From contig NZ_QKNW01000001.1 in assembly GCF_009663395.1 (NCBI RefSeq), positions 434,001-498,000 of the forward strand: 64,000 bases of DNA, read 5' to 3'. Below, one piece after another: positions 12,882 through 23,207 of this stretch (positions are counted from its first letter, which is position 1; each line of letters starts with the position of its first letter). Source of the stretch: Halosegnis longus (GTDB lineage: Archaea; Halobacteriota; Halobacteria; Halobacteriales; Haloarculaceae). The translations under genes and the position numbers were made by a program. A model generated the notes under the pieces. It was given only the letters and a program-made list of their open reading frames with translations. It was not told where the DNA came from and did no database searches.

Positions 12882-14003
12882 TCACTTGTCGCGCGTGAGT
12901 CGGTCGTCGCCGTGGCGCTCGCGCAGGTCGCGGAGATACGCCCGCTGGTCGACCATTCGCGGGGTCGGCTCCGCGAACGCGTCGGCGAACATCTCGTCGG
13001 GGTCGGCCTCCACCTCCGAGAGCTGGTCGACGGCCGCAGCCATCCGGTCTTCGTTCGCCTGCTCGATTGCTTCGACCGCGTCGTCATCGAGCACGCCCTG
13101 TCGGCGAAGATACAGCTCCAGTCGGTCGATTGGATCGACGCGCTTCCACTGGTCGACCTCGCTGTCCTCGCGGTAGGCCGTCGGGTCGTCGGCGGTCGTG
13201 TGCGCGCCGTAGCGGTACTCGACCGTCTCGATGAGCGTCGGCCGCGACTGCGCGTCGGGGTCGGTCGCCTTCTCGCGGGCCGCGAGCGTCACCTCGTAGA
13301 CGGCGAGGGGGTCCATCCCGTCGACCTGTACGCCGTCGAAGCCGTACGCCTCGGCCTTCTGCGCGATGGTGTCGGCGGCGGTCTGCTCCTCGCGGGGCAC
13401 CGAGATAGCCCACTGATTGTTGTGACAGATGAACACCGTCGGCGTGTCGTAGACGCCGGCGAAGTTCAGCCCCTCGTGGAAGTCCCCCTCCGACGTTGCG
13501 CCGTCGCCGAAGTGACAGACGACCACCTCGTCGTCGTTTCCTTGGAGCTTGGCGGCCATCCCGAGTCCCGTGACGTGGGGGATGTGGTCGGCGATACAGA
13601 TGTTGAGCGGGAAGATGCGGTCGTCAGCGAGCGCGGCGTTGCCCGACTCGTGGCCGGCCCAGTAGTGGAGGTATTCGGGCGGAAAGCCACGCACCAGCGG
13701 CGCGGCGTGTTCGCGATACTGGTACGACACCCAGTCGTCCTCGTCGAGCGCGTACATCGACCCGAAGCCGGACCCCTCTTGGCCGGCCATCGGCGAGTAG
13801 GTCCCCATCCGGCCCTGTCGCTGGAGACTCACCATCCGGTCGTCGAAGTGGCGGCCGAGCTTCATGTCGGCATAGAGGTCGCGAAGCGTCGTGTCACTCG
13901 CCGTCGGCTCGTACCCCTCGCGCAGGTGGCCGTCGGGCGCGAGCAGGCCGACGCGGTCGTCGTAATCGCGGGCCAACAGCGTGCGGCGTGCCGACTCGTC
14001 CAT
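12882..14003 (-). CDS. 2-oxoacid dehydrogenase E1 component, alpha subunit (thiamine diphosphate)
   Basis: The 373-residue protein carries the thiamine diphosphate binding motif from GDGATSEGDFHE to FICHNN, as in E1 alpha subunits of pyruvate or branched-chain 2-oxoacid dehydrogenases. No E1 beta, E2 or E3 gene is next to it, so the partner must be encoded elsewhere or the cluster was broken. It converges with dys. Its 5' side lies about 130 bases from the left end of the Trk island, so insertion may have changed its promoter context. The substrate is not determined. Confidence 0.9.
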   Translation of the reverse strand: MDESARRTLLARDYDDRVGLLAPDGHLREGYEPTASDTTLRDLYADMKLGRHFDDRMVSLQRQGRMGTYSPMAGQEGSGFGSMYALDEDDWVSYQYREHAAPLVRGFPPEYLHYWAGHESGNAALADDRIFPLNICIADHIPHVTGLGMAAKLQGNDDEVVVCHFGDGATSEGDFHEGLNFAGVYDTPTVFICHNNQWAISVPREEQTAADTIAQKAEAYGFDGVQVDGMDPLAVYEVTLAAREKATDPDAQSRPTLIETVEYRYGAHTTADDPTAYREDSEVDQWKRVDPIDRLELYLRRQGVLDDDAVEAIEQANEDRMAAAVDQLSEVEADPDEMFADAFAEPTPRMVDQRAYLRDLRERHGDDRLTRDK

Positions 14004-14132
14004 ACTTTCCGTGTGGCGCGCGCCGACATAGTTCTGTCCGAGCGCTTTTTCTTCCAGACCCAGTAGCCACGGGTGGCCGATGACGAGCGACCGGGCCGAG
14101 CCGGTGTAGGCAGCCGGCGGTGACGAACCCTA

Positions 14133-14146
14133 TGAGTGCCGAGGCC
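14133..14146. repeat. Putative left attachment site of the Trk island
   Basis: The 14 bases TGAGTGCCGAGGCC recur exactly at 20710-20723. G+C drops sharply within about 30 bases to the right of this copy. The paired copy sits at the other compositional edge, next to the integrase operon. The bases beyond the core differ, so the recombination core may be this 14-mer. Confidence 0.6.
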
Positions 14147-14295
14147 GACCACTCTGGTCCCGTTATTTAGCCTGAAACGGAAGATAATGGCACTAATGGC
14201 GTGAAGACAGAAGCGGAAGTTGAATAAGCTCGTTTCTCTCATCGTCTGTAATCTGAAAAATAAATCATTGACAGAGGATTTGATTAGACCCAGTT

Positions 14296-15852
14296 TCAAC
14301 GGTAGAGATTGAATCGCTGGAAAATGGCACCAATCAGTACCGCAACGGGGATGATTTCGAGGCGTCCGACCCACATATTGATGATCAACATTGCCTTGGC
14401 CGAATCAGGCATCGTCGGGCCGGTAATCCCTGAGTCCAGCCCGACGTTACTCTGGGCGCTCATTACGTCGAAGATAACGTACTCGAGGGGATGAGTTGGT
14501 GAGAGAACACGGAGCAAGACAGCAACGCCAATCGCCAAGAAGACAACCCAGAAGATGAATACGACGGTTGCTTCCGTATACTCACGTTGCGCCTGTCCTT
14601 CGTCAAGTCGTCGTTTGCCGATTTGGAGATACTGAACCGCGGCCGATGGCCTGAATACGTCTCGAATCTGCCAGGCGGTTCCCTTGACTAGTGTGATCAC
14701 ACGGATAAGTTTGAGGCCACTTGTCGTTGACCCAGCTGCGCCCCCCGTAAGCATTCCAAGACACATCAATAGTGTTGCGCCAGCACTCCAGACCTGTTCT
14801 GTCCCCTCACCGACCGTCGCAGTACCGAATCCAGTATTCGAGACCGCGGACACGAACTGGAACAGCCCGAGTCTAAATGTTTCTTCAAGTGTATCGTACT
14901 GACCATTCGCATACAAGATCCCTATCAGCGTAAGTGAGCCAGCAATAAACCAAATGAATACCCACCGCGTCTGCAAATCGGCGTAGAAGTTCCGTATCTC
15001 GCCCTTATAGATCAAATAGTGGATAGGGAATGCGATACTGCCGGCGAACATCACCGGCACGACGGCGTATTCGATTAGTGGGTTATTGTAATGTCCGATC
15101 GACGCCGCGTGGACGGAGAAACCGCCGGTTGCGATTCCTGTCATCCCATGATTGATCGCGTCCCACAGCGGCATGCCGACCAGCAAGAACAGGATGACTG
15201 ACCCGAGAGTGAGCCCCACAAAAATCTTCCAGATTTCCCTAACCGTTGTCACGATACTTGGATGAATCTTTTCCGACCGAGCTTCACTCTCGTAGAGCGT
15301 ATACGACCCACTGGTTCCGCCACCCCGACTGAGAATTGCGACGGTCAGTACGATAACGCCGACGCCGCCAATCCATTCGATGAATGACCGCCACCAGTGC
15401 AGCGACCGTGGCAGCTGCTCTTCGACAGCAGCCATCGTGAGCCCCGTCCCGGTGAAGCCACTCATACTTTCGAACACCGCGTCCAAGGGCTGAAGGAAAA
15501 TAACCGTCGTGTCATCCATTGGTGGGGTATTCATCCAGACTGGAAACGGGTCAATCTGGATCGTCCACGCGATGAACAAGAACGGCAAACCGCCGAGAAT
15601 GCCGATAACAGCCCACGCAGTCGCTGCTGTGACCATTGCATCGCGTTTCTCTGGCGGATCAGCGTCCTGGTATCGCCAGGCGAGTCCAGTTCCGAGTACA
15701 CCCATTATTACCGCCGTTACAGCAAAGGAGGGGATTGCGTAATACTCACTATTAACCGCTGACACGATGATCGAAATTGCCGACATTAGCGAAATAGCCT
15801 GTATAATCCGACCAACGTCGTGTCCGACCGCTTTTGTGTTTACTCTTAGCAT
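14296..15852 (-). CDS. trkH: TrkH-family potassium uptake protein
   Basis: The 518-residue membrane protein is the K+-translocating subunit, with about ten hydrophobic helices and four selectivity-filter loops: TGTGLT (134-139), ATGGF (241-245), NTGFG (339-343) and NVGLD (469-473). All four filter glycines are present. A TATA-like TTTATT (minus strand) at 15874-15879 lies about 25 bases before the ATG, so it may have its own leaderless promoter besides read-through from trkA. Codon use is clearly less G+C-rich than in the flanking chromosome. Confidence 0.95.
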   Translation of the reverse strand: MLRVNTKAVGHDVGRIIQAISLMSAISIIVSAVNSEYYAIPSFAVTAVIMGVLGTGLAWRYQDADPPEKRDAMVTAATAWAVIGILGGLPFLFIAWTIQIDPFPVWMNTPPMDDTTVIFLQPLDAVFESMSGFTGTGLTMAAVEEQLPRSLHWWRSFIEWIGGVGVIVLTVAILSRGGGTSGSYTLYESEARSEKIHPSIVTTVREIWKIFVGLTLGSVILFLLVGMPLWDAINHGMTGIATGGFSVHAASIGHYNNPLIEYAVVPVMFAGSIAFPIHYLIYKGEIRNFYADLQTRWVFIWFIAGSLTLIGILYANGQYDTLEETFRLGLFQFVSAVSNTGFGTATVGEGTEQVWSAGATLLMCLGMLTGGAAGSTTSGLKLIRVITLVKGTAWQIRDVFRPSAAVQYLQIGKRRLDEGQAQREYTEATVVFIFWVVFLAIGVAVLLRVLSPTHPLEYVIFDVMSAQSNVGLDSGITGPTMPDSAKAMLIINMWVGRLEIIPVAVLIGAIFQRFNLYR

Positions 15853-15873
15853 GAATCCTCAGTTAAGATACCG

Positions 15874-15879
15874 AATAAA
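15874..15879 (-). promoter_or_regulatory. Candidate TATA box for trkH
   Basis: The minus-strand sequence TTTATT is centred about 25 bases before the trkH ATG at 15852, the distance expected for a leaderless haloarchaeal transcript. Confidence 0.35.
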
Positions 15880-15967
15880 CGGCTTTTTACACGTACCATC
15901 AGCCTGTATCGAGTTACCCCGACCGGTGGAGAAGTTAGCCACATTAGCAAAACTATATTTTTGTCAG

Positions 15968-16654
15968 TTATATCGCCCTGTCCTCGTGGTGACCAAAAAG
16001 ATCGGTGAGTTCTGGGTCGGCTCCGTTCGCGGAATAGACCGTCAGTAGATCGTTCACTTTGATGTGGGTGTTTCCGCGCGGCGTTAGTGGCTTGTCTTCT
16101 GTTTCTCGGCCGATAGCAACAATCAATACGTCATCTGGCAACAGGCCTTCTTCACCTGCTTCGTTGAGTGTCTTTCCAGCAATTGGTGCATCCTCTGTGA
16201 CCGTAATTTCAAAGACTTCGGCCTCCTCGCCGATTCTCATATAATCGACAATTGCTGGTCTGGCGACTGCCCTGTACAGATGTCCAGCGATTAGCTGTTG
16301 TGGGTTTTCGATCGTGTTCACGCCGATCTGGCGGAAGAGGTTCATGTGCTCCGCGTTATGAACGACTGACGTAATCGCTGGAATCTCAAGTTCCTTGGCT
16401 AGCAGACAGACCATCACGTTCGTTGCGTCCTGATCGGTCGTCGAAATGATCGCGTCAGCACGATCCGCACCGGCGTCCTCCAGCGTCTCCTTCGTAGTTG
16501 CATCCGCATTCAGTACCATACAGTCGTAGTCACTGGCGATTTCGTCGGCTTTCTGTGTGTCCCGTTCGATAACGACCACTTCGTTACCTGACCGAGTCGC
16601 AATGTCGATCAGTGGCGATCCGATGTCACCTGCTCCAACGATGATGATGTACAT
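15968..16654 (-). CDS. trkA: TrkA-type cytosolic regulatory subunit (RCK_N plus RCK_C)
   Basis: The 228-residue protein has an NAD-binding RCK_N domain starting with GAGDIGSPLIDIA (glycines at 7-12) and an RCK_C tail from about residue 145 to 215. It would form a ring under TrkH and gate potassium uptake by nucleotide binding. It is a single RCK module rather than the double form of enteric TrkA. It lies between usp and trkH on the same strand, with gaps of 56 and 115 bases. Confidence 0.93.
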   Translation of the reverse strand: MYIIIVGAGDIGSPLIDIATRSGNEVVVIERDTQKADEIASDYDCMVLNADATTKETLEDAGADRADAIISTTDQDATNVMVCLLAKELEIPAITSVVHNAEHMNLFRQIGVNTIENPQQLIAGHLYRAVARPAIVDYMRIGEEAEVFEITVTEDAPIAGKTLNEAGEEGLLPDDVLIVAIGRETEDKPLTPRGNTHIKVNDLLTVYSANGADPELTDLFGHHEDRAI

Positions 16655-16710
16655 GTGTAGTATGAATTATGCGTTTGTTGGCATTTCACGCGACTGGCGT
16701 CGGGTTACAC

Positions 16711-17154
16711 TCACGCTCCGCTCACCTCTCGGTCTGGTAGAACCAGAATCGGAATGTCGCTGCTCTGAACGAGATTGTGGGTGACGTCGCCTGTCAGCAG
16801 CTTGCGCCAGCGGCTCCCCCCACGAGGAGTAAAGACGATTGCACTGGCAGTACTGTCGTGGGCCGCATCCACGATCGACGATGCGATGTCGGTTCCGTAG
16901 CGGAGATCTGTTTCGAGCGTGATCTCCGAGTCGGCCAACTTGTCGGCAACGATTTGGAAAATCTCCTCGGCACGCTGTTCACGTTGCTCAACGGATGCTT
17001 TATCAGGGGCACCACCAGCCTTTTTAATTACGTGGACGGCGATTACAGTCGAATCCGACCCCTCAACATATGGGCGGAGTGCAGCTGTCGTCGCCGTGGC
17101 GTCATCACGGTTGGCAACTGGAACAATAACCCGCTGGGAGAACGGTTCAGTCAT
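16711..17154 (-). CDS. Universal stress protein of the Trk island
   Basis: This single-domain USP has 147 residues from the ATG at 17154. Its core [20 protein letters not shown] closely matches the host USP at 1050-1469, and both share the FTPRGG stretch. The start is chosen at MTEPFSQRVIVPV, where the first beta-strand begins; the longer open frame upstream is an overlap with the next gene. It overlaps the hypothetical gene upstream by eight bases and precedes trkA, so it is probably part of a Trk control module. Confidence 0.9.
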   Translation of the reverse strand: MTEPFSQRVIVPVANRDDATATTAALRPYVEGSDSTVIAVHVIKKAGGAPDKASVEQREQRAEEIFQIVADKLADSEITLETDLRYGTDIASSIVDAAHDSTASAIVFTPRGGSRWRKLLTGDVTHNLVQSSDIPILVLPDREVSGA

Positions 17155-17506
17155 CTGAATCGCCTCCGGCGTCCTCATTGACTTTCCCAAGATAGTGCCA
17201 TTTGTACCGGCCCCCCTCGTCGTCGATATGTGGTTCCCATCTGACTCTGTAGGCGAACGGACCGCGTGCCTCACCCGTTTCATCCGGTCGTTCTACGACA
17301 GCGATTGTGTACGCGCCGTGATCCTTTACAAGAGCGAGTTCCTTCCCAGGGCACGATTCGATTGCATCCGTTATCGACGGATGTTCTCGAAGGAGTTGCT
17401 GTGCGTAATCGATAATCACCCTGAGTTCGCTATCACTGCGGTCTTCAATTGCAGTAATAAGTCGTTCAGGGAGATCGTCCGGGGGATCGATATCAGATGA
17501 AGTCAT
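17147..17506 (-). CDS. Hypothetical protein, first gene of the island Trk operon
   Basis: The 119-residue acidic protein begins MTSSDIDPPDD at 17506 and contains a helical segment with ELRVIIDYAQQLLREHPSI, then a likely beta segment with YRVRWEPHIDDEGG. It overlaps the USP gene by eight bases, so co-translation is likely. The family is not recognised. Its context with usp, trkA and trkH suggests a role in potassium or osmotic response, by association only. Confidence 0.75.
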   Translation of the reverse strand: MTSSDIDPPDDLPERLITAIEDRSDSELRVIIDYAQQLLREHPSITDAIESCPGKELALVKDHGAYTIAVVERPDETGEARGPFAYRVRWEPHIDDEGGRYKWHYLGKVNEDAGGDSDD

Positions 17507-17583
17507 ACGTTGTAGTGAATCACTGCCGTTTTTCATTCGGCTGGGTGGACTACGGGACTACTGTCACAGAGTCTGGCTACCAT

Positions 17584-18129
17584 ATGAAGAATTTTTGCTG
17601 CGCAATAAATATTGGCATTCTATTTCGTTTTAGAGTATTAATTGGCCTACAGATTTCGCAGAGGCGAAATTTAATCGCCGAGCTGAACTTAGTAGGTATT
17701 AGATGGGGGTCACCACTCTTGCCTGACCAATTTGATCTTCCAAGGAAATCACTACGCGGGCGAGTTGCAAGAACCATCGAACGAGTCTGTGTAATTGCTG
17801 CTCGCTGGTCGATCCCGCTGTTTCTTTCCGTCGGTTTCGTTTTCTTCGTGTACCTAATTGGGGGATCTATCGCAATCTCAGCAGGGTTGTGGTCCCCATC
17901 CTATGAGTTTCTATCACTATCAGATGATATTTACCTTGCATGGCTTGGATTTCTCTCAGGGACCACGATTTGCATCGGGACAGGTTCATTGATCGGACTC
18001 GCATTTCTTACCGAAGGGGATGGACAGATTCACAACGAAATCTCGATTCTAGCTTCCTTCATTGGGTTTGGTTTCGGGGCTGGACTTCTTCGGATCACAC
18101 ATATGACTGTGTTAACATCGCTAATCTAA
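17584..18129 (+). CDS. Putative small membrane protein of the Trk island
   Basis: The last about 120 residues look genuine, with three hydrophobic segments: IPLFLSVGFVFFVYLIGG, LAWLGFLSGTTICIGTGS, and ILASFIGFGFGAGLL. The start is uncertain: the ATG at 17584 adds an AT-rich stretch that contains a palindrome at 17653-17670, and a TTG at 17719 would exclude it. The family is not recognised. It could interact with the Trk complex, or be a stray membrane gene of the element. Confidence 0.5.
   Translation: MKNFCCAINIGILFRFRVLIGLQISQRRNLIAELNLVGIRWGSPLLPDQFDLPRKSLRGRVARTIERVCVIAARWSIPLFLSVGFVFFVYLIGGSIAISAGLWSPSYEFLSLSDDIYLAWLGFLSGTTICIGTGSLIGLAFLTEGDGQIHNEISILASFIGFGFGAGLLRITHMTVLTSLI
17653..17670. 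promoter_or_regulatory. Inverted repeat between the divergent island genes
   Basis: The arms ATTTCGC (17653-17659) and GCGAAAT (17664-17670) are perfect, with a four-base loop AGAG. They sit between the minus-strand Trk operon start at 17506 and the plus-strand membrane gene, a natural place for an operator. The same pairing could also form a short RNA hairpin. Confidence 0.4.
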
Positions 18130-18252
18130 CCGTTGGATCACCCGTTTATTTGTTCCGGCTACGGGCCTCAGCTAGTATGACAGTACATGCTTCTACAGAC
18201 CACCGAAGGACAACAGGAAAGACCCTATATCAACCCCGATTGTAGTTCTGGT

Positions 18253-18996
18253 ATGGCTTACCACGTTGATGAGATCGATAAACGCATCCTCTACCGTTTA
18301 GCAGGAGATGCTCGAAACACGTCAACTTCAGACATTGCGGAGGAGATGGACGTAACCCCAGCAACGATCCGGAATCGGATCAAACAACTCAAGGAGGAAG
18401 GTATTCTTCGGGGGTACCGTGCTGATATCAATTACAAATCTATCGAAGGGTATGTGACGTACCAATTTAGATGTACGGCCGCTATTCCGGATCGTAAGCG
18501 ACTTGCTCAGTCTACTCTGGAGATTCACGGGGTAATAACAGCTCGAGAATTAATGGCCGGTTCTTCAAACTTGGTGATTACCGCTGTCGGAGCAGACACC
18601 AATGAGATTACCCAAATTGCACATAAAATCTCTAATCTCGGGTTAGAAATCGACGATGAAAGTGTGATAGAAGATGAATACCACACTCCATACAGTGCCT
18701 TCGGTCCTGATGACGTGCCGAAAGGGCCGTCATTAACTGATTTTATGAGTCTCACTGGGGACGCGGAAGTCGTTGAATTTACCGTCTCAGAAGAGGCCAA
18801 GGTCGCAAATAAGACTATTGAGCAGGCTGTCGATAAAGGGCTGCTGGCCGACGAAATGCTTGTAGTTGGCATTGAACGAAACGGCGAAGTACTCACCCCG
18901 AAGGGAAGCACCGTCATTCAACCAGGAGATGTTATTGCCCTGTTCTCAAAGACACCGTTAAAGAAAGATTCTTTAGAAGAGTTTGGAACAGGGTAA
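18253..18996 (+). CDS. HTH regulator fused to a TrkA-C (RCK_C) domain
   Basis: The 247-residue protein starts MAYHVDEIDKRILYRLAGDA, an Lrp/AsnC-type winged helix-turn-helix (about 1-60, with MDVTPATIRNRIKQLKEEGI), followed by a middle region of about 80 residues. From about residue 165 to 240 it has an RCK_C domain (EEAKVANKTIEQAVDKGLL and VLTPKGSTVIQPGDV). RCK_C binds nucleotide or ions in Trk systems, so this would be a ligand-responsive repressor or activator of the island's trk genes. It converges with the integrase. The ATG at 18253 is chosen; one at 18187 would add a non-domain leader. Confidence 0.85.
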   Translation: MAYHVDEIDKRILYRLAGDARNTSTSDIAEEMDVTPATIRNRIKQLKEEGILRGYRADINYKSIEGYVTYQFRCTAAIPDRKRLAQSTLEIHGVITARELMAGSSNLVITAVGADTNEITQIAHKISNLGLEIDDESVIEDEYHTPYSAFGPDDVPKGPSLTDFMSLTGDAEVVEFTVSEEAKVANKTIEQAVDKGLLADEMLVVGIERNGEVLTPKGSTVIQPGDVIALFSKTPLKKDSLEEFGTG

Positions 18997-19131
18997 TATT
19001 GTATACCCGCGAGGTCTCCACCTTAACGATGGCTTACGTTACCAAATTAAATTTCTGCATTTGTGCTCTATATTACAAATTTTTCCAAGATATTAGAGAC
19101 AATATTCGTTACCACTCGCCACTTCCTATTT

Positions 19132-19149
19132 ATTCGTTCAATAACGAAT
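19132..19149. terminator. Hairpin between regulator and integrase genes
   Basis: The arms ATTCGTT (19132-19138) and AACGAAT (19143-19149) are perfect, with the loop CAAT. They lie in the AT-rich spacer between two convergent genes (18997-19204), where a terminator or a transcript-end structure is expected. The remainder of the spacer shows no gene. Confidence 0.35.
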
Positions 19150-19204
19150 GCCTCTCCTATGTAAAAGATGCAGACCTCGGCATTCGATTAGGAAATCAAA
19201 GTCG

Positions 19205-20137
19205 TTAGAGCCCGATGGGTTTGATGTAGTCAAGATACTCTTCTCTTGCCTCGGAGCGGTCAACGCGAGTGTAGATATCCATCGTCTCGCTTTCCGCATC
19301 ACCACGGATATACTGGAGGATGTGCTGCTTCATCCCCTGATTCCTCATCAGCGTCGTGAATACCGTCCGGAAAGTATGCGGTGTGAACTTCTTGTGGAAC
19401 CGATCCTCGCCATCTTCCATGACTCCTTCACTGGTCGCCGCCTCTCGGACAGCACGCTGAATCACCGTCTTCGTCAACCGGTCATCACGGATACTCACGA
19501 ACAGGTAGTCCAGATCCGTATCCCGTCGAATCAGCCTGAACCGCTTGATCGTCCGAATCGTCTCACGGTCAATCGGCACCACCGTCTGCTTCCCACCCTT
19601 TCGTTCTCGGAGCCGAACAAAACCGTCGTCCAGCATCAGGTCGTCCATCTTGATCTCCAAGGCTTCCTCCAGCCGACATCCGGTCTTCGCCAGTAAGACG
19701 GCGACGGCCTTGTTCCGCGGATTCGGAATCGCCTTCACGATTTTCTTCGCGTTCTCCCACGTCGCACAGTCGGGGCGCTGCCGGATCTGCTTCGGAATCT
19801 CCTCCAACACGACGCCAGCTGGATTTCCGGTGATGTTCTCGAACCGTGGTCGCTTCATCGCATAGCTGAAGAACGCTGATAAAGATTCGAGGTAGCGCCG
19901 TTTCGTATTCTGACTGACCCCGCGGTTATCCAAGATACGCAAGTACTCCTCAATGTGCCGTACCTCCGTCTTCTCCGGCGTGAGATCGGGAAAGTGCTCA
20001 TGGTAGTGCCGCTTGAGTACCCTGCTGTAGGAGTTCAGCGTTCGCGGACTGCGCCCTGTGGTCTGCTTCTGCTTGATGAAGTCGTTGATCGCGTCGTGCT
20101 TGTTCTCGTAGACCGTCTCGTACCAGTCATCGGCCAT
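19205..20137 (-). CDS. Tyrosine recombinase / phage-type integrase
   Basis: The 310-residue protein has the tyrosine recombinase layout: an N-terminal DNA-binding SAM-like domain (about 1-100) and a catalytic domain with Arg155 in KTGCRLEEAL, His254 and Arg257 in TPHTFRTVF, and Tyr289 in ETMDIYTRVD. The usual second His position reads as RGD (Asp280), as in related archaeal integrases. It would cut and rejoin att sites. The ATG at 20137 overlaps the stop of the upstream accessory gene, and a GTG one codon earlier is an alternative. Confidence 0.93.
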   Translation of the reverse strand: MADDWYETVYENKHDAINDFIKQKQTTGRSPRTLNSYSRVLKRHYHEHFPDLTPEKTEVRHIEEYLRILDNRGVSQNTKRRYLESLSAFFSYAMKRPRFENITGNPAGVVLEEIPKQIRQRPDCATWENAKKIVKAIPNPRNKAVAVLLAKTGCRLEEALEIKMDDLMLDDGFVRLRERKGGKQTVVPIDRETIRTIKRFRLIRRDTDLDYLFVSIRDDRLTKTVIQRAVREAATSEGVMEDGEDRFHKKFTPHTFRTVFTTLMRNQGMKQHILQYIRGDAESETMDIYTRVDRSEAREEYLDYIKPIGL

Positions 20138-20630
20138 CACTCCTCACCTCCAGCAAGTCGCCACCCGTGACCGTGCTCGAACTCGACCTCCTCACGATCA
20201 GCCAAGAAATACAGTTCGTCCTCGATTGGTTCTCGCAGCAGTTCGTCGACCGTGTCACTCTCGACGACCTTCTGTAAGACCCCGTCGAACGTCTGGTACT
20301 CCTCAGTGAGGAATTGTTTCAGGAACGCCGAATCGTCAATCGTCACCGAGTCACGATTCTGCTGTTTCGCCTGCGCCAAACGGTCCTCCAACTCCTCGAT
20401 TTTCTTCTTGAGTCGCTGAACTTCTTGGTCGCTGCCCTGGGGCGCGAGGAACCCTTCGTCCCTGATCGCCCGGGCTTCCTGGATCAGTTCGTGCAGGTAC
20501 TTACTAGTACTCTTATAATTTTTTTTTCATCCGCTTCTTGCTGCCACGTCTCCTTGTGGCTCATCGGTACGTAGATTTTCACCAGTCCGGTGTCTTGCGA
20601 CATACCCATGTTCTCTTTCCAGCCAGTCAT
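20137..20630 (-). pseudogene. Integrase-accessory RHH/coiled-coil/winged-helix gene, frameshifted in an A9 run
   Basis: From ATG 20630, with a strong GGAGGTG site at 20638-20644, the frame reads MTGWKENMGMSQDTGLVKIY and runs to ADEKK at a run of nine A (minus strand; T run at 20519-20527). It then goes out of frame and stops at 20484. The next frame continues with YLHELIQEARAIRDEGFLAP, a coiled coil RLKKKIEELEDRLAQA, and a winged-helix-like end, to the stop at 20137. One extra A (ten) would join the two halves to about 164 residues. The layout suits a DNA-binding excision or control protein; the break may be real, a phase-variable tract, or a sequencing error. Confidence 0.65.
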
Positions 20631-20637
20631 CTAACAA

Positions 20638-20644
20638 CACCTCC
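20638..20644 (-). promoter_or_regulatory. Strong Shine-Dalgarno site of the integrase operon
   Basis: GGAGGTG on the minus strand sits seven bases before the ATG at 20630. It decides the start of the accessory gene. A TATA-like AGTATAAAAATATT lies at about 20674-20688 upstream, and a perfect palindrome TTAGTACTAA is at 20688-20697, which could be an operator. Confidence 0.6.
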
Positions 20645-20709
20645 GTTCGTCTCCATATCAACAACATATTCATCAATATTTTTATACTTAGTACTAACCG
20701 GAGCTTCCG

Positions 20710-20723
20710 TGAGTGCCGAGGCC
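20710..20723. repeat. Putative right attachment site of the Trk island
   Basis: TGAGTGCCGAGGCC matches 14133-14146 exactly. It sits between the AT-rich integrase promoter and normal G+C chromosomal DNA leading into the glycosyltransferase gene. Preceded by CCG, it would start a GTG frame MSAEATHPETYETTG; the left copy starts ATG MSAEADHSGPVI, so the site may be at the 5' end of a former host ORF. Confidence 0.6.
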
Positions 20724-20806
20724 ACCCATCCAGAGACGTATGAGACAACTGGTAGCTTCGGGAGCAACCTGGCCACACTGCGTATATTGAGTTGGCTCGA
20801 AACGCG

Positions 20807-21709
20807 CTACTCGTCCAGTACCTCAACGTCGAACTTCGAGCGCCAGCGGTACCGCCGGCCACCCCAAACGAACGTGTCGCGTGAGAATGCATACACTGCT
20901 AGTGGAACAGCAGCCGCGAGTGCCGGCACGGTCAACAGGAGCGAGAGCCGTCGGATTCCGAAGCTTGCACTGACGCCAACTGTCAGCAGTGTGAATCCGA
21001 CCGCGAACAACGGCGAAAGAACACAGCCGACGAGAACGGCGACGAGCGCGCCAAAGGAGAGTTTCGCTACCGTTGGGTCGTGTGTCGCGAAGATTTGGTT
21101 GAATCGGACGTGCCGTTCGAGCGTCTGCCGGAAGGTGCCGCCCATCGGCACCCGGCGTACGCGCCGAACTGACGTCACGTCGGTGTGTTCCCCGAGCAGT
21201 CCATCGTCGCTAATCGTCTGGCGAAGCTCCGAGAGAAACGCGGCCTCGTCGATATCGCTTCTGTCGAAGATGACGGCTCCGCCCCAAGCGTGGTCACCCG
21301 CGTACGTCCCGAGCGTGCCACCGAGGACGTAGACCGGTTCCAGCAGAACCGCAAGCGGGTCTTGGCCGACGAACGCCGGTAGCTCCGTCGTTGGTCCGTG
21401 TTCGGCGTAGTCGGCCTGGAGTTGGGCGAGCCAGTCCGGCGGGTGGTGGAAGTCGTCGTCGGTCCAGACGAGCCGGTCGTGGTTAGCGGTCTCCATCCCC
21501 GCGGCGATCGCGTTTGCCTTCCCGGAACACTCGACGGGGTCGCCGGCGGCGACCAACTGGACGTTTTCCGGAAGTGGTGTTCGGTCCACAACGGGGTCAT
21601 CCTCGCTGTCGTGGATAACGAGGAGTTCGTCTTCGGGACCCAACTGTGCGGCAACGTCGTCGCAGGCATCCGTCCACGACACAGTCGGGAGGAGTACACT
21701 CGTTGGCAT
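20807..21709 (-). CDS. Family 2 glycosyltransferase with C-terminal membrane segments
   Basis: The 300-residue protein has the GT2 nucleotide-sugar binding region with the metal-binding WTDDDFHHP near residue 82. Hydrophobic segments occupy about 215-275. Membrane GT2 enzymes move a sugar to a lipid or polysaccharide acceptor; neither sugar nor acceptor can be told. It is the first gene to the right of the island. An AT-rich ggataataagc at 21796-21806 on the plus strand may be its TATA box on the minus strand, with a leader of about 90 bases. Confidence 0.85.
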   Translation of the reverse strand: MPTSVLLPTVSWTDACDDVAAQLGPEDELLVIHDSEDDPVVDRTPLPENVQLVAAGDPVECSGKANAIAAGMETANHDRLVWTDDDFHHPPDWLAQLQADYAEHGPTTELPAFVGQDPLAVLLEPVYVLGGTLGTYAGDHAWGGAVIFDRSDIDEAAFLSELRQTISDDGLLGEHTDVTSVRRVRRVPMGGTFRQTLERHVRFNQIFATHDPTVAKLSFGALVAVLVGCVLSPLFAVGFTLLTVGVSASFGIRRLSLLLTVPALAAAVPLAVYAFSRDTFVWGGRRYRWRSKFDVEVLDE

Positions 21710-21911
21710 GTATTCAGCGGTGTAGCGTGGTGACGTGCCGCAGTTGGATGGTTTCGAGTACCGTGTGTGTCTGTGTGGCCAACATCGGTGTCTGGATAAT
21801 AAGCGTAGGCATCAATGGGGTTTTTGTTGTGTTACCACCAGCGGCTCTGAGCTTCCCGGGGCGGCGAGACACACATCGAGACGAGAAGAACCGAGCAGTT
21901 GTCAGGTTGTC

Positions 21912-23207
21912 CTACGTCGCGGCTTCGATTGCGGCTTCGAGGTCGGCGATGATTTTCGCCGGGTCCTCGATGCCGACGGAGAGTCGGACGAGTTCGTCGG
22001 TGACGCCCGAGGCCTCTTTCTCCTCGTCGGTGAGCTGTTGGTGGGTCGTGCTCGCGGGATGGATGATGAGCGTCTTCGCGTCGCCGACGTTGGCGAGCAG
22101 ACTCGCCAGGTCGGTGGATTCGACGGTTTTCCGGGCCGCCTCGTAGCCGCCCGCGAGACCGAAGGTAATCATCCCGCCGTAGCCGCCGTCCAGATACTTG
22201 CTGGCGTTCTCGTAGGTCGGGTGGGATTCGAGACCGGGGTAGTTCACCCACTCGATGTCGGGGTGGGCGTCGAGCTGTTCGGCGACGAGCATCGCGTTCT
22301 CGCAGTGGCGCTCCATCCGCAGCGGGAGCGTCTCGATCCCCTGAATCGTCTGCCACGCGTCGAACGGTGACTGCTGATTGCCGAGATCGCGCAGTCCGCG
22401 GGCGATAGCGGCGTAGGTGAACGCCGCGTCGCCGAACGTCTCCGCGAAGTTCACGCCGTGGTAGGCGGGGTTTTCGCTGGCGATTTCGGAGTACTTCTCG
22501 GGGTAGTCGGCCCACGGGAAGGAGCCGCCGTCGACGACGACGCCCCCGACGGTCGTGCCCGAGCCGTGGAGCCACTTCGTCGTGGACTCCCAGACGAGGT
22601 CGGCCCCGTGTTCGAGCGGGCGACACAGCGCCGGCGTCGCGAACGTGTTGTCCACGAACAGCGGCACGCCGTGGTCGTGCGCGATATCCGCGACGCGCTC
22701 GATGTCCGGCGTGTCGAGGGCGGGGTTGCCGATGGTTTCGAGGTGGACGTAGGCAGTGTCCTCGTCGATAGCCGCCTCGTATCCCTCGTAATCGAGGGTG
22801 TCCACGAACCGGGTGCTCACGCCACGTCGCTCGACGCTGTGGGTGAGGTAGGTGTAGGTGCCACCGTACAGCGAGTTCGAACTGACGATGTTGTCGCCCG
22901 CCTCGGCCAGCAGGAAGGTCGTGAGATCGAACGCGGCCATGCCGGAGCCGGTGGCGGCCGCGCCCACGCCGCCTTCGAGGGTGGCCAGTCGCTCCTGCAG
23001 CGTCTCGACGGTCGGGTTCATCAGCCGCGAGTAGATGTAGCCCGGCTTCTCGAGCGCGAACTGCGCGGCCGCGTCCTCGGCGTCGTCGAAGACGTACGAG
23101 GTCGTCTGGTACAGCGGCGGTGCCCGTGCACCGGTCGCGGCGTCGGGTTCCTGTCCGGCGTGTAGCGAGTCGGTCGAAATCGAACGGGAGTCTGGGTCGT
23201 CGCTCAT
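21912..23207 (-). CDS. O-acetylhomoserine sulfhydrylase-type PLP enzyme
   Basis: The 431-residue protein belongs to the Cys/Met metabolism PLP family. The PLP lysine lies in ESTTKWLHGSGTT, and RLMNPTVETLQERLATLEGG is the usual N-terminal substrate loop. The length (about 430) and overall pattern favour O-acetylhomoserine aminocarboxypropyltransferase (MetY), which makes homocysteine from sulfide. No homoserine acetyltransferase gene is next to it in the window. The start at 23207 fits the family. Confidence 0.88.
   Translation of the reverse strand: MSDDPDSRSISTDSLHAGQEPDAATGARAPPLYQTTSYVFDDAEDAAAQFALEKPGYIYSRLMNPTVETLQERLATLEGGVGAAATGSGMAAFDLTTFLLAEAGDNIVSSNSLYGGTYTYLTHSVERRGVSTRFVDTLDYEGYEAAIDEDTAYVHLETIGNPALDTPDIERVADIAHDHGVPLFVDNTFATPALCRPLEHGADLVWESTTKWLHGSGTTVGGVVVDGGSFPWADYPEKYSEIASENPAYHGVNFAETFGDAAFTYAAIARGLRDLGNQQSPFDAWQTIQGIETLPLRMERHCENAMLVAEQLDAHPDIEWVNYPGLESHPTYENASKYLDGGYGGMITFGLAGGYEAARKTVESTDLASLLANVGDAKTLIIHPASTTHQQLTDEEKEASGVTDELVRLSVGIEDPAKIIADLEAAIEAAT

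Follow-up and report, generated by a model that had tools for sequence, protein, structure and literature searches.

A Trk-carrying putative integrative element at the 3′ end of the sR-tMet guide RNA gene of Halosegnis longus, and use of the same site across haloarchaea

Genes and edges of the low-G+C block

The window, meaning the whole 64,000-nucleotide stretch analysed here, comes from Halosegnis longus (contig NZ_QKNW01000001.1, positions 434,001 to 498,000). It contains a block with a tyrosine integrase gene and a Trk potassium-uptake module (Table 1), which the first-pass annotation had taken for an integrated island bounded by a 14-base direct repeat. Both copies of this repeat, TGAGTGCCGAGGCC, are exact and lie at the two edges where they had been placed. 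A genome-wide count found exactly these two copies in the 2.77-Mb genome, and two further copies elsewhere with one mismatch; thus the 14-mer is not a common scattered motif, which would have spoken against the proposal. The low G+C content was also confirmed, being 0.51 between the repeats against 0.68 in the left flank and 0.67 beyond 21.9 kb. That the repeats lie close to the change in composition is true at the left, where the shift coincides with the repeat copy. At the right, however, the shift is softer, with a 1.15-kb segment of 61% G+C (20724-21876), carrying a glycosyltransferase gene, in between; the backbone common to relatives restarts at 21876-21916. This segment lies between attR and a PLP-enzyme gene and is replaced by other sequence in the same-genus genomes G002 and G004. 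The core was searched for at its right end and was not found there. It is probably an older, separate insertion.

Table 1. Features of the sR-tMet locus in the window
Feature	Position	Strand	Basis
sR-tMet C/D-box guide RNA gene (attB, now attL under the proposed insertion)	14075..14146	+	Rfam RF02163
attL core TGAGTGCCGAGGCC	14133..14146	+	exact repeat; homology with element-free relatives ends here
Proposed integrative element, 6577 bp with one core counted	14147..20723	.	left end from empty relatives
TrkH K+ uptake subunit	14296..15852	-	PF02386, 241.8 bits
TrkA, single TrkA_N + TrkA_C	15968..16654	-	PF02254, PF02080
Universal stress protein (USP)	16711..17283	-	PF00582
Hypothetical protein, 129 aa, overlaps listed USP ORF	17147..17536	-	ORF, no family
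Possible membrane-protein ORF, 210 aa, doubtful	17497..18129	+	ORF, no family
AsnC/Lrp-type HTH fused to TrkA_C, probable regulator	18187..18996	+	PF13412, PF02080
XerA-like tyrosine recombinase (integrase)	19205..20140	-	PF00589; NF040815; 11-member alignment
Accessory recombination gene, frameshifted	20137..20630	-	comparison with G060, G134
attR core TGAGTGCCGAGGCC	20710..20723	+	exact repeat; end common to relatives

Pfam and NCBIfam bear out the gene content first read from the open reading frames, namely a Trk module with its own USP and regulator beside a tyrosine integrase, and no scanned ORF matched a replication or virion family, as had been noted. The start codon of the USP gene is uncertain, as the Usp domain starts at residue 50. 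Plasmids of Halalkalicoccus jeotgali, Halovenus salina and Halobacterium hubeiense carry the Trk module in synteny, and TrkH has 80-85% amino-acid identity to haloarchaeal plasmid homologues. Two other TrkH genes of the host lie near 511-514 kb, 34-36% identical to that of the block, so that the block supplies a third, distinct TrkH.

The best NCBIfam match of the integrase is archaeal XerA (NF040815), at 205 bits, under the cut-off of 220; the integron integrase model gives 77 bits. R156, K181, H255, R258 and Y290 are invariant in 11 aligned integrases, which completes the catalytic set of tyrosine recombinases (R, K, HxxR, Y). The sixth catalytic position, usually H or W and H in XerA, is D281, an aspartate in all 11. 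Directly upstream of the integrase gene, here and in nearly all named loci examined, lies an accessory gene. It is intact in relatives and has a +2 frameshift in the Trk-carrying copy, at an A/T run near 20523-20535. The frameshift may be real decay or a sequencing error, and because of it this copy may be fixed in place. Neither PHROGs nor Pfam was decisive for the accessory protein. The AlphaFold model of this protein is poor (mean pLDDT 72, pTM 0.34) and suggests only a strand-helix-helix start followed by a long helix.

The sR-tMet gene and the locus in relatives

The left copy of TGAGTGCCGAGGCC is exactly the last 14 bases of a gene for the C/D-box RNA sR-tMet, which scores 77.4 bits against a gathering score of 50 with the full-length covariance model (Rfam RF02163). 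Its guide, ACCCTATGAGTGC, has an exact 13-nt complement in one intron-containing tRNA(CAU) gene of the genome, and score and guide together place it in the sR-tMet family. In haloarchaea, sR-tMet acts with aFib, Nop5p and L7Ae to make Cm34 (PMC4033218). The gene is present in 95 of 96 good genomes of the family. Because the 14-mer is the end of the gene, the RNA gene looks intact with the left copy as its end, and the right copy is a bare core. A tRNA gene as the target was considered and rejected; ARAGORN found none in the window.

The nearest relative, G002, has an E1-alpha protein 97% identical to that of H. longus. Both G002 and G004 keep the E1-alpha gene, an sR-tMet gene ending in the 14-mer and the PLP-enzyme gene, and they lack the block, with about 1.0 kb (G002) and about 0.9 kb (G004) of other sequence where the window has 7.7 kb. 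Their homology with the window ends at 14146-14147. Thus the block is not carried by all close relatives, which would have counted against insertion, and among the same-genus genomes searched none has the integrase. Genomes of the same family likewise have sR-tMet and its core without the element. The empty site with a single 14-mer that the first-pass annotation had expected is therefore found in G002 and G004, although in no relative is it perfect on both sides, because the 1.15 kb to the right of attR also varies.

The right boundary comes from other genera. Integrases 93-95% identical to that of the window are found in Halorubrum xinjiangense, Halapricum sp. CBA1109, Halorussus halobius and Halovenus aranensis, and in all four the element spans from sR-tMet to a second core past the integrase. 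DNA homology to these elements covers only the integrase module through the right core and, in several, also some 20-25 bases at the left end, and the right end common to relatives falls at 20723-20726. The boundaries at 14147 and 20723 thus follow from the limits of homology to the empty relatives and to the elements of other genera, and the direct-repeat cores at both ends match these limits. In these closest relatives the elements measure about 3-8 kb, their two ends are intact and their cargo differs. None of the related elements examined carries Trk. The same integrase beside trkAH, a pairing that the first-pass annotation had proposed to look for in haloarchaeal genomes, was not seen among them, and the idea that Trk characterises a family of such elements is ruled out. 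The idea of a compact integrative element with K+ uptake as its cargo is supported by the comparison, but Trk does not define the element. It appears, rather, that the integrase, its partner protein and both ends form a conserved recombination module, with the cargo between them exchanged.

Recurrence of the site, arrays and cassettes

Among 392 genomes of the order, 46, belonging to 28 genera, encode relatives of the integrase. Among about 50 related integrases, 40 lie downstream of sR-tMet on the same contig, at distances of 0.1 to about 100 kb, and 31 of them within 20 kb, or about 0.6% of a genome. In 65 sR-tMet loci chosen without regard to integrase, the core recurs 27 times within 14 kb downstream (at most one mismatch), against about 0.1 expected from shuffled sequence, and neither the opposite strand nor the reversed pattern gave any in 78 loci. 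A few related integrases lie away from sR-tMet (G182, G378, G324). One of these, in G182, belongs to a related element (L249, 3043-10563) with two cores about 7.5 kb apart, the left one outside a recognisable sR-tMet; it is possibly a secondary site or a rearranged array. In one integrase subgroup (L074, L075, L251, L252) the integrase gene adjoins sR-tMet and reads away from it, so that core and integrase stand in the opposite relative orientation to that in the class of the window.

Other loci record further events. In Halorientalis pallida (L224) a remnant of an integrase gene (13859-14062, 84% identical over 204 bp) lies beside sR-tMet in addition to a full integrase, apparently the trace of an earlier insertion. 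Matching ends are about 102 kb apart in G151 (L109/L110) and about 289 kb apart in G378 (L257/L258), as if plasmid-sized DNA had integrated at sR-tMet, and in G040, G238 and G432 integrases are found 92-102 kb downstream of it. An integrase of 70% identity (L199) is encoded on the 113-kb circular plasmid of Natrinema salinisoli (NZ_CP084471.1, 8001-8930), a contig without an exact core.

Several sR-tMet loci have two or three successive cores. Thus cassette arrays with a common recombination site are present in related loci and absent from the window. One recurrent cassette, of 919-922 bp, consists of a small ORF and a PIN-like ORF; it was found in ten copies in several genera, 82-89% identical, and for the most part no integrase is resident beside it. 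In the family, 17 genes are at least 77% identical to its PIN-like gene, and 15 of them stand no more than about 4 kb downstream of sR-tMet, mostly in genomes that lack the integrase. The small ORF has no Pfam match and the PIN-like ORF a sub-threshold one only, so we read the cassette tentatively as toxin-antitoxin-like; in a second cassette, of 802 bp and from G007, the domains are clear, being DUF433 and DUF5615 (PIN-like). Other inserts at the site encode a P450, an LD-carboxypeptidase or a GmrSD_N protein. Cassettes in the loci L154 (G121), L164 (G120) and L174 (G019) have homologous large proteins in common, which by eye look like one CapA-type pair and one Mur-ligase/CapB-type pair.

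The ends fall into recognisable types. A right end of CACTATGGATAGATTGTGAGTCG and core is common to many cassettes, and one of AGTACTAACCGGAGCTTCCG and core to elements of the class of the window; a 3.3-kb insert of G099 without integrase has a right end similar to AGTACTAACCGGAGCTTCCG and core. In G366 an element of the class of the window and a 921-bp cassette stand in tandem. The sequence AGCTTTCTATCCATACATTTG that follows sR-tMet also follows internal cores, and a TCTATCCATA motif is inverted at matching right ends. AGCTTTCTATCCATACATTTG may therefore be the left end of an element rather than native host flank.

A proposed mechanism, its rivals and known systems

Taken together, 14147-20723 is very probably (about 0.93) an integrative element that was inserted by site-specific recombination through its own XerA-like recombinase at the 3′ end of sR-tMet. 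The comparison of genomes itself shows the boundaries, the target gene, the absence from relatives and the family-wide use of the site. The attP core would have recombined with the final 14 bases of sR-tMet on the chromosome (attB) by conservative recombination, catalysed by the element's own integrase, and the partner protein encoded directly upstream would take part. Because the last 14 bases are duplicated on insertion, sR-tMet would stay whole at attL, and attR would hold the core alone. A circular intermediate is expected to carry the junction CGGAGCTTCCG-TGAGTGCCGAGGCC-GACCACTCTGG, and excision would restore an attB in which the sR-tMet core is joined to ACCCATCCAGAG. Between the conserved ends cargo would be swapped, TrkH, TrkA, USP and regulator here, presumably functional in K+ uptake, and other genes in relatives. 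Because the same site is reused, elements and integrase-less cassettes would pile up in tandem behind sR-tMet, the latter possibly mobilised in trans. The 3′ end of sR-tMet would thus be a site-specific, integron-like hotspot across haloarchaea, and Trk the swappable cargo of one copy.

A chance match of the repeat, with the block being an old chromosomal region of odd composition, has a negligible probability. The 14-mer pair alone is admittedly weak evidence; when the window was shuffled 100 times, at least three matches at up to two mismatches turned up in 7 of the shuffles. However, this reading is ruled out by the genome-wide and family-wide core counts, with the empty relatives, the end points common to other genera and the identity of the target gene. 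It is also improbable that the block is a decayed integrated plasmid or provirus reduced to the Trk region and the integrase. Some relatives at the same site seem to span about 50-100 kb (G340, G151, G040, G238, G432), and both the Natrinema plasmid with its related integrase and the plasmids with a syntenic Trk module would fit such an origin; the small size, intact ends and different cargo of the closest relatives argue instead for a class of small elements over independent decay.

A further reading extends the preferred one rather than opposing it. The 3′ end of sR-tMet might be an integron-like cassette platform, where short cassettes that lack an integrase and each end in the core would be taken up and lined up by integrases supplied in trans; the Trk element would then be one cassette that brings its own integrase. 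We put this at slightly under even odds. The arrays of two or three cores, the ten-copy cassette, the clustering of PIN-like genes near sR-tMet in mostly integrase-free genomes, the right end shared among cassettes and the tandem in G366 all speak for it. On the other hand, the cassettes could be remnants of integrase elements after gene loss, and the ends are repeats of the double-strand type. In its fuller form, held just as tentatively and as a single joint claim, XerA-like integrases with a ribbon-helix-helix-like partner would build arrays of autonomous elements and integrase-less cassettes (toxin-antitoxin-like, metabolic) at sR-tMet, working like an integron, with a separate evolutionary origin at a housekeeping guide RNA gene.

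That elements integrate into tRNA genes is textbook knowledge. Use of a C/D-box methylation-guide gene by an integrase family, as its standard target throughout haloarchaea, seems to be without precedent in the open-access literature searched, where no published C/D-box sRNA attachment site was found; genomic-island databases may contain such sites unremarked. A review of archaeal tyrosine recombinases (PMC8371274) and a thaumarchaeal survey (PMC6563490) list tRNA, protein-coding and intergenic sites, and no sRNA gene. For haloarchaeal genetics, the 3′ end of sR-tMet offers a defined and nearly universal attB, and it would explain one hotspot of accessory genes, including K+ uptake, P450, restriction-type and toxin-antitoxin-like functions.

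Among known systems, the Trk modules on plasmids of Halalkalicoccus jeotgali (NC_014299/NC_014301), Halovenus salina (NZ_CP112974) and Halobacterium hubeiense (NZ_LN831304) also keep TrkH, TrkA and an HTH regulator together, with about 73% nucleotide identity, and USP is included in Halalkalicoccus and Halobacterium. Unlike the Trk element, they reside on plasmids of 44-364 kb, and the matches span the Trk genes but not the recombination module. Closer in mechanism are the archaeal tRNA-gene elements with XerA/pNOB8/SNJ2-type integrases (PMC8371274), where the SNJ2 type is delimited by an identity of 30% or more across 60% of the SNJ2 integrase. As in the sR-tMet family, they have a tyrosine integrase with a SAM-like N-domain, their short direct-repeat core coincides with the 3′ end of a small RNA gene, which is left intact, and tandem reuse of one site has been reported for them. 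However, the sR-tMet family targets a C/D-box guide RNA gene and not a tRNA gene, most of its short cassettes are without integrase, and its partner gene is nearly constant. With integrons, including the archaeal ones reported in MAGs of nine phyla with Halobacteria unmentioned (PMC9668308), the sR-tMet loci have in common that short cassettes form arrays at a single site, often with no integrase in residence, and that some of the cargo is toxin-antitoxin-like. They offer a candidate, open to experiment, for a system that is integron-like without being an integron. In place of an IntI-type integrase beside attI, the integrase here is XerA-like and travels inside the mobile elements, and the insertion point is a host RNA gene.
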